Shown: positions 21,374 to 32,942 of the stretch, piece after piece
How the letters are laid out: each line of letters opens with the position of its first letter
Numbering within the stretch: the stretch's first letter is position 1
Origin: Crocinitomicaceae bacterium
GTDB taxonomy: Bacteria; Bacteroidota; Bacteroidia; Flavobacteriales_D; Crocinitomicaceae
Assembly (NCBI GenBank): GCA_021740745.1
Contig: JAIOZF010000021.1
Location: 1 to 39,274 of the forward strand
DNA length: 39,274 nucleotides
Direction: 5' to 3'
Notes under the pieces: generated by a model
Database searches by the model: none
What the model was told of the DNA's origin: nothing
The model's input: only the letters and a program-made list of their open reading frames with translations
Position numbers and translations under genes: made by a program

Positions 21374-21718
21374 ATGAAAATAATAGGACTTATCTTTTTA
21401 TTGCTTTTAGGAGCTTCACAAGTAAAGGCACAAACACAATCCACCTCCTTTTTTGGTCAATGCATGATTGAAGTGGCAACAGCCGAAGAAATGGCTCAAT
21501 TACAAACAACAATGAGAGAAAATCCTTATATCAAGGTTGTTCGATTAGACTATAATACGCAAAGAGCATTTATATTGACGCAAAATTTAGAATCATTGAC
21601 TGAAGAAAATTTCATTTCATGGTTCAGCCAGTATGCAGACAAAGTTAGATGTGTTCAAGTAGGTCAACACGGTGTTGATAGTATCAAACCTTTCCCTTTT
21701 GAAGGGTGCGAAAATTAA
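21374..21718 (+). CDS. Small secreted protein of unknown function
   Basis: I do not recognise a named family. From 21374 the product has 114 residues. MKIIGLIFLLLLGASQVKAQ reads as a Sec signal peptide, leaving about 94 mature residues. An ATG at 21341 in the same frame would add 11 residues, and a near-consensus -7 element (TAATCTTG, 21317-21324) sits 16 bases before it, so the longer start is possible. The predicted order strand-helix-strand-strand-helix-strand (CMIEVAT, AEEMAQLQ, IKVVRLDYNTQRAFIL, EENFISWFSQ, RCVQVGQ) suggests a ferredoxin-like fold resembling metal-binding HMA domains, without a CxxC pair. The next gene starts 5 bases later. Confidence 0.7.
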   Translation: MKIIGLIFLLLLGASQVKAQTQSTSFFGQCMIEVATAEEMAQLQTTMRENPYIKVVRLDYNTQRAFILTQNLESLTEENFISWFSQYADKVRCVQVGQHGVDSIKPFPFEGCEN

Positions 21719-21723
21719 TTACC

Positions 21724-24342
21724 ATGATTTCTTTAAAAAAGTTTTTAGTACCATTAATGTTTGTTGTTGCGGCTATTAGTTATGCGCAGCAATTACCGGT
21801 AAATTGTAATCTAGCAATCCCTGGTTGTTCAACACCATCCTTTGCTATTGTTGGAACACAACCAGCATACAACACGGTTGATTTTAGCTCAGGATCCATT
21901 TCCAATCCAAGCTCTAATCCTCAGGGTATAAACTCTGGTTGTTTACTATCCGGAGAAACAGTATCAACTTTTATAACCATCAATGTAGTATCAAGTGGGA
22001 CGTTGCAATGGTCTATGATTGGAACTGCTGGAGGATGTTTTGACTGGATTATGTGGCCGATGCCGAATGCAGATCCAACTCAAGCATGTGCAGGAATAAA
22101 TGGAAATACGCTAGCTCCTGTTTCGTGCAACTGGAATGGAACATGCAATGGTAACACAGGAATGGCAGCAGCAGGGAATTTACCGCCTAATGGTTCGCCA
22201 TCAAGTTACCAGCCTCCTTTAAATGTAATTGCTGGCCAAGCATACATGCTATGTCTGTCCAATTATAGTTTTACGAATCAAAATGTAAACTTGAATTTCT
22301 TTGGTTCTGCTCAAGTTGTATGTGGTGTTTCAGCAGCTGATCAAACAATTTGTCAAGGCACAAGTGCTACTGTAAATATTGCGACTCCTGGTTTAACTGC
22401 TCCTCAGTTTAATTGGTTGGTGACAAATGGTGTTTCAAATACTACATCGGGGTCTAATGTTACTGTTACCCCTACTGTTACAACTACATATTCAGTACAA
22501 GTAACTCAACCAGCGACTGTCACATCTAGTGCATTTATTGATACAGCAGTTTTCACGATTGCTGTTGTTCCGCCTCCAGTTCCAAATGCAGGAATAGATG
22601 ATACAGTATGTTTAGGACAACCTATTTATTTGTCTGGTTCAATTAGCAGCCCGACAAACACGCCATCATGGCAATTTTTAACTGCTGGAATCACTCCAAC
22701 TCCAACGGTGACATTTGCACCAAATTTCAATTCATTGACACCAACGGTGACAGTGAATCAAGTTGGCTTATATTCTTTTATTCTAAGAGAAAATAATACG
22801 ATTTGTGGTATGTTTAGAGATACTGTTCGTGTATTGGTAACTAATATTTCTCAAACTACATCATATACTCCTCCATCATGCGGTGGTCTGAGTGATGGTA
22901 CAATTACAATTACAAGTCCATTAGCTGAAGAATTTAGTTTCAATAATGGAACAACATGGCAAACGGCTTCAACACAAGGAGGATTTGCCGCCGGAACTTA
23001 CACTGTTTGTTCTAGAAATTTCGCAGGTTGTCAAACGTGTTCTCAAGTAGTAGTTATAGATCCGCCAGTTGTGACAATATCCGCCAGTGCAGATACACTA
23101 ATTTGTGAAAATGGAACTGCTACACTTATCGCTTCAGCTACAGGAGGAACAAGTTATACGTTTAACTGGGATTTTACAACCAATACAGGTGCAACTCAGT
23201 TGGTTAATCCTTTGGTGAACACGACCTATACGGTTTATGCAACAAATCAAAACAATTGTGATTCTCCGGTTGAGAGCATTGTTGTCAGTGTCCGCAACCC
23301 AATTACAGGAACAATTTCAATTGAAGACACAATTTGTCCTGGCTATCCTACATCACTTTCAGCTTCTGCGGTAGGTGGAATTGGTGTTCCATATACATTT
23401 GTCTGGAGCACGGGTGAAACAGGTGTTGGTGCAAATCATACGATTAACAATGTTAACCCATCATATACAACAACATATACAGTTACTGTAGAAGATGTTT
23501 GTGAATCTACACCATTGGTTATGACAACACGCGTAGTTGTTGCACCGCTTCCAATTCCGCTTATTTCAACAGATATCAATAATGTGTGTGAGCCTGCTGT
23601 TTTCAATCTTACGAATGAAACTGATCCTTCAATGGTGCAGGATGTATTTTGGAGTGTGTCAAATGGTGATATGTTCCAAAATCAATCAACCGTTACCACA
23701 AGTCCAATGTGGGATGGCATGTATGATGTTCAGTTAATTGTAACCTCACCCCAAGGTTGTATTGACTCAACAACTTTCTATAACTACTTGAATGTTTATC
23801 CTAAACCAATTGCAGACTTCAGATATTCACCAAATCCTGTAATGATGTTCAATACAAAGGTGAAATTCGTGAATTACTCAATAAACGGAGATACATACCA
23901 ATGGTTCTTTACAGATGGGAATCCTTCTTATTCTGCAATGGAAGATCCAACGGTATTTTATCCTGACGGTGTAACAGGTGAATACGACGTCATGTTAATC
24001 ACAACTTCAGAATATGGTTGTGTTGATACAGCAATGCAAACTGTTATTGTTTTACCTGAGATTCTTTTATACGCACCAAATGCTTTCACACCAGATAATG
24101 ATGAGTTTAATCAAGATTGGGGGATTAGTATTTCTGGAGTTGATATTTATGATTTTCAGTTGTTGATATTCAACCGATGGGGTGAAATAATTTGGGAAGC
24201 AAATGATCCTGCTGCAAGATGGGACGGAACGTATAACGGAACGAGAGTTCAACAAGGTGTGTATACTTGGACGATTCGAACGAAAGATGTAATTAATGAT
24301 GCCAAGTACGAATGGAACGGCTTTATAAATGTGTTGAAATAA
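21724..24342 (+). CDS. Secreted multi-domain protein with T9SS type B sorting domain
   Basis: The 872-residue product starts with a signal peptide (MISLKKFLVPLMFVVAAISY). A cysteine-rich N-terminal domain of about 200 residues has GGCFDWIMWPMP and AGQAYMLCLSNYS. Several immunoglobulin/PKD-like repeats follow, each opening with a pattern such as DTxICxG and closing with TTYTVxV. A PKD domain (ADFRYSPNPV, YQWFFTDGNPS) comes next. The last 90 residues (YAPNAFTPDNDEFNQDWGI, LLIFNRWGEIIWE, WDGTYNG, GVYTWTIR) are the gliding-motility-associated C-terminal domain that directs type IX secretion. The role is probably surface adhesion or binding; the ligand is unknown. A GTG at 21706 would overlap the previous gene and is less likely. 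Confidence 0.9.
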   Translation: MISLKKFLVPLMFVVAAISYAQQLPVNCNLAIPGCSTPSFAIVGTQPAYNTVDFSSGSISNPSSNPQGINSGCLLSGETVSTFITINVVSSGTLQWSMIGTAGGCFDWIMWPMPNADPTQACAGINGNTLAPVSCNWNGTCNGNTGMAAAGNLPPNGSPSSYQPPLNVIAGQAYMLCLSNYSFTNQNVNLNFFGSAQVVCGVSAADQTICQGTSATVNIATPGLTAPQFNWLVTNGVSNTTSGSNVTVTPTVTTTYSVQVTQPATVTSSAFIDTAVFTIAVVPPPVPNAGIDDTVCLGQPIYLSGSISSPTNTPSWQFLTAGITPTPTVTFAPNFNSLTPTVTVNQVGLYSFILRENNTICGMFRDTVRVLVTNISQTTSYTPPSCGGLSDGTITITSPLAEEFSFNNGTTWQTASTQGGFAAGTYTVCSRNFAGCQTCSQVVVIDPPVVTISASADTLICENGTATLIASATGGTSYTFNWDFTTNTGATQLVNPLVNTTYTVYATNQNNCDSPVESIVVSVRNPITGTISIEDTICPGYPTSLSASAVGGIGVPYTFVWSTGETGVGANHTINNVNPSYTTTYTVTVEDVCESTPLVMTTRVVVAPLPIPLISTDINNVCEPAVFNLTNETDPSMVQDVFWSVSNGDMFQNQSTVTTSPMWDGMYDVQLIVTSPQGCIDSTTFYNYLNVYPKPIADFRYSPNPVMMFNTKVKFVNYSINGDTYQWFFTDGNPSYSAMEDPTVFYPDGVTGEYDVMLITTSEYGCVDTAMQTVIVLPEILLYAPNAFTPDNDEFNQDWGISISGVDIYDFQLLIFNRWGEIIWEANDPAARWDGTYNGTRVQQGVYTWTIRTKDVINDAKYEWNGFINVLK

Positions 24343-29566: not shown

Positions 29567-29639
29567 GAATATGTGTTATGGCTATTTTGTTAGCTTAGAA
29601 ATAATATGATTAAAAGTAGCAAAATCTATTCGTTTTATC

Positions 29640-29647
29640 TAAATTTG
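29640..29647 (+). promoter_or_regulatory. Possible -7 element for the MbnP-MbnH operon
   Basis: TAAATTTG ends 15 bases before the ATG at 29663, the same short distance seen before carA, hutU and secY. No -33 TTG at good spacing. Confidence 0.4.
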
Positions 29648-29662
29648 TTTAGAACTGTTAGT

Positions 29663-30409
29663 ATGAAAAAAACAATATTTTACTTTTTGTCCCTTCTTTT
29701 TTTAGCATCATGCAAAGATGAAGTTATTGACCCGCCCGCTCCTGTTGCTGATCAATTAAAAATGACAATGCAGCCGACATTTGGATCAACTGATTTAGTT
29801 TTAGATCAGACATATACTACGGATGAGGGATATTTGGTGCAATTCACGGATTTGAAATGCTATATTACAGATGTGGCAAATGGGTCTTCCACTTTGTGTT
29901 CATCAGCACTTTTCGACTACCGAGCAAATAACACGGTTTTATTTACTAAACCAGGAAAACCATCTGATTACGCAGATTTAACAATGTCTTTAGGGGTTGC
30001 TGCATCAAAGAATCACGCTGATCCAACATCATTTTCTTCATCAGACCCGCTGTATATTACGATAGCAAATGACATGCATTGGGGATGGAATCCAGGCTAC
30101 ATTTTCATGAAAGTGGAAGCAAAAGTCGATACTATTCAGAATGGTATTGATAATTTTGACCACACAATTGTGTTTCACATTGGTGGAGATGCTTACCTGC
30201 AAAATTTACAACTCAATTCGATCACTTGGAATGCAGCCGGTAATGGAATTTACACAAGAGCATTGAAATTGGATATGCAAAAGTTTTTGAATAATGGAAC
30301 TGAAATCATTGACTTAAAAACTGAGTATACGTCACATACTGGACCAGGGCAAGAAGCGATTAGCTTAAAAGTCATTCAGCATTTGAAAGATGCTATCAGT
30401 TTGTATTAA
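29663..30409 (+). CDS. MbnP-family lipoprotein (probable copper-related)
   Basis: From 29663 the product has 248 residues and starts with a lipoprotein signal, MKKTIFYFLSLLFLASC, with the lipidated Cys at 17. The body has the MbnP-family feel: FTDLKCYITDV, then HWGWNPGYIFMKVEA (H139-W140-G141-W142), then VFHIGGD with H172. MbnP proteins are paired with di-heme MbnH enzymes, and in the studied example MbnH oxidises a tryptophan of MbnP to kynurenine to make a copper site. The HWGW motif is my candidate for such a residue (inference). The di-heme partner gene follows after 22 bases. An earlier in-frame ATG at 29606 would place a poor N-terminus before the signal. Confidence 0.8.
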   Translation: MKKTIFYFLSLLFLASCKDEVIDPPAPVADQLKMTMQPTFGSTDLVLDQTYTTDEGYLVQFTDLKCYITDVANGSSTLCSSALFDYRANNTVLFTKPGKPSDYADLTMSLGVAASKNHADPTSFSSSDPLYITIANDMHWGWNPGYIFMKVEAKVDTIQNGIDNFDHTIVFHIGGDAYLQNLQLNSITWNAAGNGIYTRALKLDMQKFLNNGTEIIDLKTEYTSHTGPGQEAISLKVIQHLKDAISLY

Positions 30410-30431
30410 CTGCTCAAATAGTTTTTAATTC

Positions 30432-31505
30432 ATGAAGTATTTGTTAATTATTTTTGGAATTTTGGTGTTTGCCCTTTCTTGTAAAAAAGACAAAGTGGGA
30501 TATACCCCAACTCCATATGAATTAGAAATTCCATCTCATTTTCCTGAAATGAAAATTCCCGCAGATAATCCAATGACTGTGGAAGGTGTCCATTTGGGTC
30601 GCTTGCTGTTTTACGAAGAAAGATTAAGTGGTGATAACACCCAGTCGTGCGCATCTTGTCATTCAATTGAAAGTGCATTTTCTGATCCAAATAAATATTC
30701 GACAGGAATAGATGGCATTCAAGGCAATCGTAATTCAATGGCATTGATTAATCTAGGATGGCAGAAATTCTTTTTTTGGGATGGACGTGCTGCAACGTTG
30801 GAAAAGCAAATTTTGGAACCTGTGCCAAATCCAATTGAGATGCATCAATCATGGAAAGATGCTGTTGCCAAGCTAAATGGAGATGTCAATTACCGTAATT
30901 TATTCTATAAAGCATTTGGTGAAGAAGGAATTGACTCTACTAAAGTGGCAAAATCGATTGCTCAATTTTTAAGAACGCTTATTTCGGGGACATCGAAATA
31001 CGATATAATGTATAAATATGAGTATGGAATTCCATTGTCCTCGACCGATCAAGCCATCTTGTCAACTATTTCTCTAGAAGAGTGGGCAGGATATGATTTA
31101 TTTAAAGGCTTAAACGGTGCTGATTGTTTTCACTGTCACAATGGTCCGTTAATGCAAGTTCAGCTCTTCAGTAACAATGGACTTGATGCTACGTTTACTG
31201 ACCCTGGAAGAGGTGGTGTAACGGGTAATGCAAATGATATGGGTAAATTTAAAATTCCAACGCTTCGTAACATTGCACTTTCAGCGCCTTATATGCACGA
31301 TGGTAGATTTACAACGCTTGATCAGGTAATAGAACATTATTCTTCGGGTATTATTCAATCATCAACACTTGATCCATCTATTGAGTTCGCTTTTCAAGGT
31401 GGAGTTCAATTGGATAGTGAACAAAAGTCATTATTGAAAAAGTTTCTAGAAACTCTGACCGATTACAATTTTATAAACAATCCTAATTTTAAGGATCCGA
31501 ATTAA
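30432..31505 (+). CDS. Di-heme cytochrome c peroxidase family lipoprotein, MbnH/MauG-like
   Basis: The 357-residue product has a lipoprotein signal (MKYLLIIFGILVFALSC, Cys17) and two c-type heme motifs, CASCH at 73-77 and CFHCH at 232-236. Other family marks are SGDNTQSC, FFFWDGRAATLEKQ, NPIEMH, FKIPTLRNIALSAPYMHDGRF and VIEHYSSG. Members either reduce hydrogen peroxide or, as MauG and MbnH do, oxidise residues of a partner protein at long range. Its position behind an MbnP-like gene favours the second role. Both proteins should sit in the same membrane, facing the periplasm or surface. A plain peroxidase remains possible. Confidence 0.88.
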   Translation: MKYLLIIFGILVFALSCKKDKVGYTPTPYELEIPSHFPEMKIPADNPMTVEGVHLGRLLFYEERLSGDNTQSCASCHSIESAFSDPNKYSTGIDGIQGNRNSMALINLGWQKFFFWDGRAATLEKQILEPVPNPIEMHQSWKDAVAKLNGDVNYRNLFYKAFGEEGIDSTKVAKSIAQFLRTLISGTSKYDIMYKYEYGIPLSSTDQAILSTISLEEWAGYDLFKGLNGADCFHCHNGPLMQVQLFSNNGLDATFTDPGRGGVTGNANDMGKFKIPTLRNIALSAPYMHDGRFTTLDQVIEHYSSGIIQSSTLDPSIEFAFQGGVQLDSEQKSLLKKFLETLTDYNFINNPNFKDPN

Positions 31506-31517
31506 ACGAAATAGAAG

Positions 31518-32942
31518 ATGATTGACGAAAGAAGATTGACTACTGAGGAGAAGGCATTAAAAATAAATTTAACATCAGATATTTACGGTTGTTTTGCTGA
31601 AATTGGAGCAGGACAAGAAGTTGCCGCTAACTTTTTCAAAGCTGGTGGAAGTTCTGGAACGATTGCTTACACGCAGTCTGCATACGACATGAAAGTTTCG
31701 GATTCAATGTATGGTGAGGCATCACGGTATGTTTGTGAAGAACGACTGATCACAATGTTGGAAACTGAGTATGGAACATTAAAGTTTCGATTACCATCTA
31801 AATATAAAGAATCACGATTTTTTGCTTTCAGTAATACAGTTGAATCTCTTAATTATCACAAGACAAATCAAGGTCAAGGTTGGGTGGGGATTCGGTTTCA
31901 ATTGAATCTTGAAGCGGAACCAAACGATGTCATTTTGCATATTAAAATGCATGATAACAGTCATAAAGCGCAACAAGAAGCCTTAGGGATTTTAGGAGTA
32001 AATTTAATTCATGCGTGCTATTTTCACAAGGATGACTTAAACGAGTTTTTAGAAAATTTAGTCCATCGTTTGCCGCGTGATCGCATGGAAATTGACATGC
32101 TACGTGTTTCAGGACCAGATTTTAACAACATTGACAATCGAATAATTGCGTTGAATTTGGTTAAACGTGGGATTACTGATGCGACAATGTTTGATCTCAC
32201 GGGGCACGTTGTTCAGCCAGCAACTGCACTTTATAAAAAGAATATATTATTGATGCGCGGTCGTTTCAGACCAGTAACGAAAGTGCATATTGATATGATT
32301 GAAACTGGAAAGAAACAGTTTATTAAAGAAAGTGAAGTGAAGGAAGAAGATCTTCGAGTGATTTTTGAATTAACCTTGAAAGATTTGACTGCCGATGGTA
32401 AAATTTCGGATAAGGACTTCGTTGATCGAGCAGAACTTCTGGGATTATTGGGCTATACGGTGATGATTTCAAATTATTTGAAACATTATAAGATGGTAGA
32501 TTACCTTGCTTCCATTGCGAAAGAAAAGCGAATGGGTGTTATTTTGGGGGTTTATAATCTGCATACAATTTTTGACGAACGTTATTATGATAATTTACCT
32601 GGTGGTTTGTTAGAAGCATTCGGAAGAGGTTTTGGTCACAACGTGAAACTGTTTGTCTATCCAGCAACAAACGTAGATAGCGGGGAAATTTATTCATTGT
32701 CGAATATTAAAATTCCAGCTCACTTAAAAGGTTTGCTTCAATATTTGGTAGACAACAATAAAATGGAATCAATTGAGGCGTTTGATCCTAAGCTTTTGCA
32801 CATTATGTCGGATGATGTTTTGTCTAAAATTAAAGCTGGTTCAACAAGTTGGGAGGAAGATGTACCTAAAGAGGTAACCGAGGCAATTAAAAAGTATGAT
32901 TTATTTGGTTTCAAAAAGATCAAGGAAGTTGTAAATAATTAG
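31518..32942 (+). CDS. Conserved protein of unknown function with EF-hand-like loop
   Basis: I cannot assign a function. The 474-residue product has no signal peptide or membrane segment. It has a distinctive N-terminal region (DIYGCFAEIGAGQEVAANF, FKAGGSSGTIAYTQSAYDM), a central ALGILGVNLIHACYF, and TGHVVQPATALYKKNILLMR before GRFRPVTKVHIDM. I recall similar proteins of about 480 residues in several phyla, under inconsistent labels. Residues 289-300 (DLTADGKISDKD) fit a calcium-binding EF-hand loop, with Asp instead of Glu at position 12. It starts 12 bases after the di-heme gene and 11 before the WYL regulator, so all four may form one transcript. Confidence 0.8.
   Translation: MIDERRLTTEEKALKINLTSDIYGCFAEIGAGQEVAANFFKAGGSSGTIAYTQSAYDMKVSDSMYGEASRYVCEERLITMLETEYGTLKFRLPSKYKESRFFAFSNTVESLNYHKTNQGQGWVGIRFQLNLEAEPNDVILHIKMHDNSHKAQQEALGILGVNLIHACYFHKDDLNEFLENLVHRLPRDRMEIDMLRVSGPDFNNIDNRIIALNLVKRGITDATMFDLTGHVVQPATALYKKNILLMRGRFRPVTKVHIDMIETGKKQFIKESEVKEEDLRVIFELTLKDLTADGKISDKDFVDRAELLGLLGYTVMISNYLKHYKMVDYLASIAKEKRMGVILGVYNLHTIFDERYYDNLPGGLLEAFGRGFGHNVKLFVYPATNVDSGEIYSLSNIKIPAHLKGLLQYLVDNNKMESIEAFDPKLLHIMSDDVLSKIKAGSTSWEEDVPKEVTEAIKKYDLFGFKKIKEVVNN

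Follow-up and report, generated by a model that had tools for sequence, protein, structure and literature searches.

To our knowledge, copper sites that contain kynurenine are known from a handful of methanotroph proteins only. For MbnP, a paper from 2021 reportedly describes a site made up of one histidine, one methionine, solvent and the kynurenine that arises from the first tryptophan of a WxW motif. The MbnP of Methylosinus trichosporium is deposited as PDB entry 7l6g under the title 'Metallo-mystery pair system four-Cys motif protein', and its gene is paired with that of a di-heme enzyme, MbnH. Two further methanotroph systems, CorA/CorB and MopE/SACCP, likewise combine a kynurenine copper protein with a co-transcribed di-heme peroxidase-like protein; for CorA, the kynurenine Cu(I) site and the co-transcribed partner CorB are described in PMC3912023. 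PMC3621798 reports no marked sequence similarity of MbnP to MopE or CorA, and states that the MbnP/MbnH pair, defined by the models TIGR04039 and TIGR04052 and by GenProp0940, is conserved far beyond the producers of methanobactin. The occurrence of such pairs outside methanobactin loci has been in print since 2013 and is not new. No study of MbnP and MbnH in Bacteroidota, including a lipoprotein branch, was found among the open-licence papers listed, and the lipid-anchored branch of the pair seems to be unstudied.

The window analysed here is a stretch of 39,274 nucleotides from a Crocinitomicaceae bacterium, and it contains one such pair, with 22 nt between the two genes (Table 1). A preliminary description, made from the letters alone, had named an MbnP-family lipoprotein with an HWGW motif, followed by a di-heme MauG-like lipoprotein with two CxxCH motifs, and both calls hold, including the coordinates. 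The mechanical open reading frame of MbnP starts at 29606; the start was set at 29663 because the lipobox and the relatives place it there. MbnP exceeds the Pfam cut-off for PF20243 (27 bits) and that of the lipobox model LPAM_1 (20.6, cut-off 20), and HWGW corresponds to residues 139–142. MbnH reaches 184.2 bits with PF03150 (CCP_MauG, cut-off 25.6). With the NCBIfam models the scores stay under the cut-offs: 34.9 against 140 for MbnP with TIGR04052 (MbnP_like_WxW equivalog), 252.9 against 362.85 for MbnH with TIGR04039 (MbnH hypothetical equivalog, spanned from 1 to 335 of its 336 positions), and 159.1 against 443.85 for MbnH with TIGR03791 (MauG). Both proteins are relatives of TIGR04052 and TIGR04039 that by these thresholds lie outside them. 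Among solved structures, the window enzyme comes closest to 6e1c ('Di-heme enzyme', E 8.1e-51 in a PDB sequence search), which we take to be the Methylosinus MbnH; together with the fold match of MbnP to 7l6g, this bears out the homology that had been proposed with the Methylosinus pair. The two systems share the gene pair, the MbnP fold as predicted for the window, the WxW motif, an aligned methionine and histidine, and a di-heme enzyme of the tyrosine type. They differ in that both window proteins are lipoproteins anchored at Cys17 and fall under both NCBIfam cut-offs, that the window MbnP is only 13–14% identical to 7l6g and has a histidine before the first tryptophan, and that nothing in the genome, which is 96% complete, matches the model of the methanobactin biosynthesis protein MbnB, an absence that agrees, as far as MbnB goes, with the earlier statement that a methanobactin gene is lacking. 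We argue below that the pair is probably a kynurenine copper protein together with its maturase.

Table 1. Positions in the window of the two genes, their promoter element and the residues discussed in the text.
Feature	Position	Strand	Remarks
Promoter box TAAATTTG	29640..29647	+	fits TAnnTTTG; 60/74 loci
MbnP-family lipoprotein, 248 aa	29663..30409	+	PF20243 84.5 bits; AlphaFold2 pLDDT 93.5; 7l6g Z 16.3
Cys17 of MbnP, lipid-attachment Cys, then K-D-E	29711..29713	+	LPAM_1; invariant in 75
WxW motif M138-H139-W140-G141-W142-N143-P144-G145-Y146	30074..30100	+	W140 predicted Trp-to-Kyn site, M138 predicted Cu(I) ligand
His172 of MbnP, predicted Cu(I) ligand	30176..30178	+	aligned with H of HVG in 7l6g
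Di-heme MbnH/MauG-type lipoprotein, 357 aa	30432..31505	+	PF03150; TIGR04039; best PDB match 6e1c
Cys17 of MbnH, lipid-attachment Cys, then K-K-D-K	30480..30482	+	invariant in 39
First heme motif C73-A-S-C-H77	30648..30662	+	66/66
W116, equivalent of MauG inter-heme Trp93	30777..30779	+	offset 23; 54/66; invariant in 39 window-type sequences
E136, equivalent of MauG Glu113, distal pocket; Q126 and P130 before it	30837..30839	+	66/66
Second heme motif C232-F-H-C-H236	31125..31139	+	66/66
Y303, predicted Tyr ligand of six-coordinate heme (Met in classical bCcP)	31338..31340	+	Tyr 65/66

The AlphaFold2 model of the window MbnP was built on 75 aligned sequences, namely the window and the 74 relatives that were left from 80 after six incomplete loci had been dropped. 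Foldseek finds with this model six chains of 7l6g, at E-values between 6.4e-8 and 1.2e-6, and no other match under 0.001; a second structural aligner superimposes model and 7l6g with an rmsd of 3.0 over 197 residues, and the next entry has a Z-score of 3.9. MopE and CorA are absent among the structural matches listed. Sequence searches against the PDB are weak: the single-sequence search returned chance matches alone (E 0.79 and 0.9), and a profile search ranked 7l6g first at E 0.034. It is therefore the fold comparison that carries the claim, and as modelled the window protein has the MbnP fold. The same profile match (E 0.034) aligns M138-x-W140-x-W142 with GMAWNW(QAG) of 7l6g and H172 with its HVG; taken together with the published site, this predicts that M138 and H172 are the conserved methionine and histidine of a putative Cu(I) site. 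Such a site would differ from that of CorA, which has two histidines, kynurenine and water.

Conservation was followed in several sets. Of 82 MbnPs recognised by profile in the fetched loci, 80 retain W140, and the counts for W142 and for M138 are likewise 80; H172 is present in 79, G111 and G145 in all 82 and Y146 in 81. A set of 67, obtained as phmmer matches of the window sequence, missed the loci L054 and L056, which entered with the profile set. In the 75 window-type sequences C17, M138, W140, W142, G145, Y146 and H172 are invariant, a result that is partly circular for the motif since the loci were retrieved with patterns containing MHWxW or GYIF; H172 and C17 lie outside these patterns. 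The profile-based sets (the 82 MbnPs, and the 156 MbnP-family proteins described below) are more telling on the motif than the window-type set.

The pair is widespread, and its two members are nearly always together. Candidate pairs were seen in 58 of the 60 genomes sampled around the source genome (itself included) and in 78 of a phylum-wide sample of 296; a search of plasmid DNA with a Bacteroidota MbnP/MbnH stretch gave no match. The window and the best 80 of 207 relatives make up 81 window-type loci. MbnH lies directly downstream of MbnP in 78 of them, the other three running off the contig end, and in 72 of these 78 the gap is between -4 and +6 nt. Outside the order, an adjacent CCP gene accompanies MbnP in all 20 hand-picked loci from the phylum (in L210 and L212 MbnP was recognised by its motif). 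The source genome itself (3.03 Mb in 137 contigs) has three matches to MbnP and three to CCP_MauG, which form three pairs with MbnP first; contig C95 ends within the third CCP_MauG gene. A tandem arrangement was also seen, in L062, L069, L070 and L224, where MbnP is followed by two different di-heme genes.

The distances in the MbnP and MbnH trees correlate with r 0.855 over 75 pairs, a value that none of 999 permutations reached and much of which is explained by the shared descent of the three paralogue groups, which alone gives a high correlation. Seven of the 82 MbnP reading frames were left out of this test: L054 and L056, with no CCP in the stretch, L060 and L065, at contig ends, and L205, L210 and L220, which have a CCP beside MbnP that the gap rule of the test missed. 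The window type and the type found on contig C30 are clades in both trees. The type with a T9SS tail is only nearly a clade for MbnP, and not one for MbnH, where under the root used the common ancestor of its 11 members has 38 tips.

A second view of the coupling is given by 180 loci, a set that excludes the 80 window-type relatives and loci with a CCP only. They hold 156 distinct MbnP-family proteins, 136 of which combine Trp-Trp-His with a CCP no more than 2.5 kb away. Eight have a CCP and lack the full Trp-Trp-His (two of them weak matches, unaligned at the site), seven are cut by an end, three keep Trp-Trp-His with no CCP, and two have neither. The coupling of the site residues of MbnP to a CCP is thus strong, not absolute, the exceptions being 8 of the 144 with a nearby CCP and 3 of the 5 that have enough flank and no CCP, one of these three with the whole motif. 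In the partnerless MbnPs of L054 and L056, the two tryptophan positions are occupied by F and by N or S, and the histidine by R or K; one tryptophan is left at position 139. The genomes of both carry CCPs elsewhere. The two are alike, so the loss of WxW and His may be one event, and although the number is small, such a loss is what one would expect if the partner builds the site that these residues serve. Both genes (L054 3593-4369 and L056 3535-4317) lie beside a gene for a protein with C-x3-C-H-C and LTPAGVMISHxH close to the N-terminus. Four other MbnP-family proteins, in L262, L265, L267 and L276, have a nearby CCP and no WxW (e.g. M-L-GG-GYHYM), and may form a branch whose site or modification is different.

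The two paralogous pairs of the genome differ from the window pair in what surrounds them or is attached to them. The MbnP on C95 (L074 2-1936) has a C-terminal extension that, at 21.6 bits, narrowly misses the cut-off of 23 for T9SS sorting. A scan of five extended MbnPs for this tail gave three that pass (45.4, 42.1 and 28.7), the C95 copy just under, and one with none; the tail suggests a surface or secreted form of MbnP. Besides L074, the T9SS-tail type was noted in L063, L068 and L069. The C30 pair (L075 5035-9500) stands in line with other genes, in the order ECF sigma factor, 95-aa protein, Metal_resist-like protein (a weak match, E 0.018, 15.6 of 29.2 bits), MbnP, MbnH and a YHYH protein that itself carries a T9SS tail. 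Within 21 loci of this type (its own and 20 picked), several of them cut by contig ends, the ECF gene is present in 16 and YHYH in 19. YHYH has one match in the genome, at the C30 locus, and could be a third partner of this type of pair; no paper on YHYH, copper and Bacteroidetes was found in the open-licence literature. A cell may have three dedicated, co-evolving systems that turn tryptophan into kynurenine for copper, each with its own mode of display: one lipid-anchored (the window pair), one exported to the surface or the medium by its T9SS tail, and one in an ECF-sigma/YHYH operon, a proposal that we put forward as tentative.

The presence of three pairs also raises the question of whether copper might be served only by another of them, with the window pair a constitutive envelope system that has another task. 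The recurrent neighbours of the 81 window-type loci are non-metal genes: a UvrD-like helicase (70 loci), a 474-aa protein (71) and a WYL protein (58). No recognised copper gene was seen among them, these three families having been scanned with profiles and the rest assessed by eye. The promoter points the same way, since a box of the form TAnnTTTG, which we take to be the Bacteroidota -7 promoter element, lies in the 60 nt before the chosen start in 60 of the 74 loci of the window type, compared with 3.7% of random 60-mers drawn from the same loci (coding included); the window promoter looks ordinary, with no sign of copper control. The ECF sigma factor and the weak Metal_resist-like protein accompany the C30 paralogue instead. 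Against this stands the retention of every residue of the putative site in the window-type sequences, where H172 owes nothing to the search patterns, and we regard a role in copper for the other pairs only as unlikely.

The recurrent helicase, 474-aa and WYL neighbours also make the window locus look vertically inherited. The 474-aa protein (window 31518-32942, 12 nt after MbnH) has no Pfam match at 0.01 and lies downstream. Most named relatives of the locus bear a title with Crocinitomicaceae, Fluviicola, Brumimicrobium or Flavobacteriales; two records, L140 and L145, titled Glaciecola amylolytica (CP034120) and Candidatus Kuenenia, have a Flavobacteriales-type locus and may be mislabelled. 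Recurring neighbours in the 20 phylum loci are an outer-membrane protein of the Phenol_MetA_deg type (10), a small Cys-containing protein (9) and an SCO1-type protein (2, one of them scanned). Elsewhere in the window, at 21706-24342, there is an 878-aa secreted-looking repeat protein with what by eye is a gliding-type C-terminal end.

As for the location of the pair, the preliminary description had placed lipid anchors at Cys17 of both proteins, and this is confirmed by the lipobox and by the invariance of the cysteine; the MbnH alignment behind it holds every second MbnH minus the partial L149, 39 sequences with the window included. According to PMC5080379, lipoproteins that Bacteroidetes export to the surface have K-(D/E)2 or a related signal behind the cysteine, best with lysine at +3. 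The C-K-D-E of the window MbnP resembles this export signal, but has its lysine at +2 where +3 is preferred, and the C-K-K-D-K of MbnH does not fit it. Among the relatives, the signal fits strictly in 23 of 75 MbnPs and loosely in 33, and in none of the 39 MbnHs, so that surface exposure is a weak inference. At a guess, the modification would take place on the periplasmic side, with partial display of MbnP at the surface.

The enzyme remains to be fitted into the picture. Its structural model is poor (pLDDT 74.0). MauG Trp93, Gln103, Pro107 and Glu113, as given in PMC6405878 (Glu113 in the title of a reference), correspond at a constant offset of 23 to W116, Q126, P130 and E136. In 66 MbnHs (68 before fragments under 250 aa were removed) Q126 is kept in 56 and P130 in 65, the others as in Table 1. 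The same paper states that the six-coordinate heme has Met-His ligands in bCcPs and Tyr-His ligands in MauG. Tyr303 of the window enzyme, the next residue after the stretch that pairs with AVET of 1iqc, a peroxidase from Nitrosomonas, takes by alignment the place of the methionine of classical bacterial cytochrome c peroxidases, here and in nearly all relatives. MauG therefore has in common with the window enzyme the Q/P/E distal pocket, the inter-heme tryptophan and the tyrosine ligand; it differs in its neighbour, which is methylamine dehydrogenase where the window has MbnP, and in the TIGR03791 score given above. Tyr303 was considered as a marker of pairing with MbnP and rejected. The control consisted of 21 CCPs, taken from 20 loci where the approximately 1.5 kb fetched on each side encode no WxW protein; 18 of them have tyrosine and 2 methionine at this position, and one is cut. 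With tyrosine in 18 of 21 unpaired CCPs, Tyr303 fits a MauG-like enzyme and is no mark of MbnP pairing.

An enzyme of this kind could modify MbnP and still make another product, such as hydroxytryptophan or a Trp-Trp cross-link as in TTQ, with another metal or none at the site. MauG itself oxidises two tryptophans in preMADH (PMC6405878), and the window type has His139 beside W140 where 7l6g has alanine. We nevertheless hold this to be quite improbable, since fold and motif are those of the solved MbnP 7l6g, and one methionine and one histidine are conserved together with WxW. About as improbable, in our judgement, is a plain H2O2-removing cytochrome c peroxidase with MbnP as its copper or redox electron donor, or as a protein that needs no modification: the superfamily (PF03150) is the same, and BthA, a Tyr-ligated di-heme enzyme, can still turn over H2O2 (PMC6405878), but tyrosine stands where classical bCcPs have methionine, the pairing is one-to-one and the genome yielded no additional CCP_MauG gene, and the tryptophans of the partner are kept in 80 of 82.

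The 7l6g fold, the conservation of WxW with Met and His, the MauG-type enzyme residues and the absence of WxW and His from two MbnPs that lack a partner favour the kynurenine/copper reading, which we hold to be probable; the interpretation in the preliminary description is partly supported. According to this proposal, Crocinitomicaceae-type Bacteroidota would have a two-gene operon for a substrate protein and a maturase, both lipoproteins. The MbnH-like maturase would use a Tyr-His six-coordinate heme and a five-coordinate heme that binds peroxide, and would oxidise W140 of its MbnP-like partner to kynurenine. In the finished site, one Cu(I) would be surrounded by M138, H172, solvent and Kyn140, and the modified MbnP would capture copper or hand it on at the cell envelope.

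What is new here is a double-lipoprotein branch of the pair below both NCBIfam cut-offs, together with its paralogues, the T9SS-tail type and the ECF-sigma/YHYH operon. If the Bacteroidota branch works like the Methylosinus pair, candidates could be studied in Fluviicola chungangensis MAH-3 and Brumimicrobium oceani C305, and the partnerless MbnPs without WxW and His would offer a natural comparison. If a cell did have three such systems, as tentatively proposed above, the oxidative modification of tryptophan would be a general route to copper traps of the cell envelope, in a phylum that has no need of methanobactin for it.
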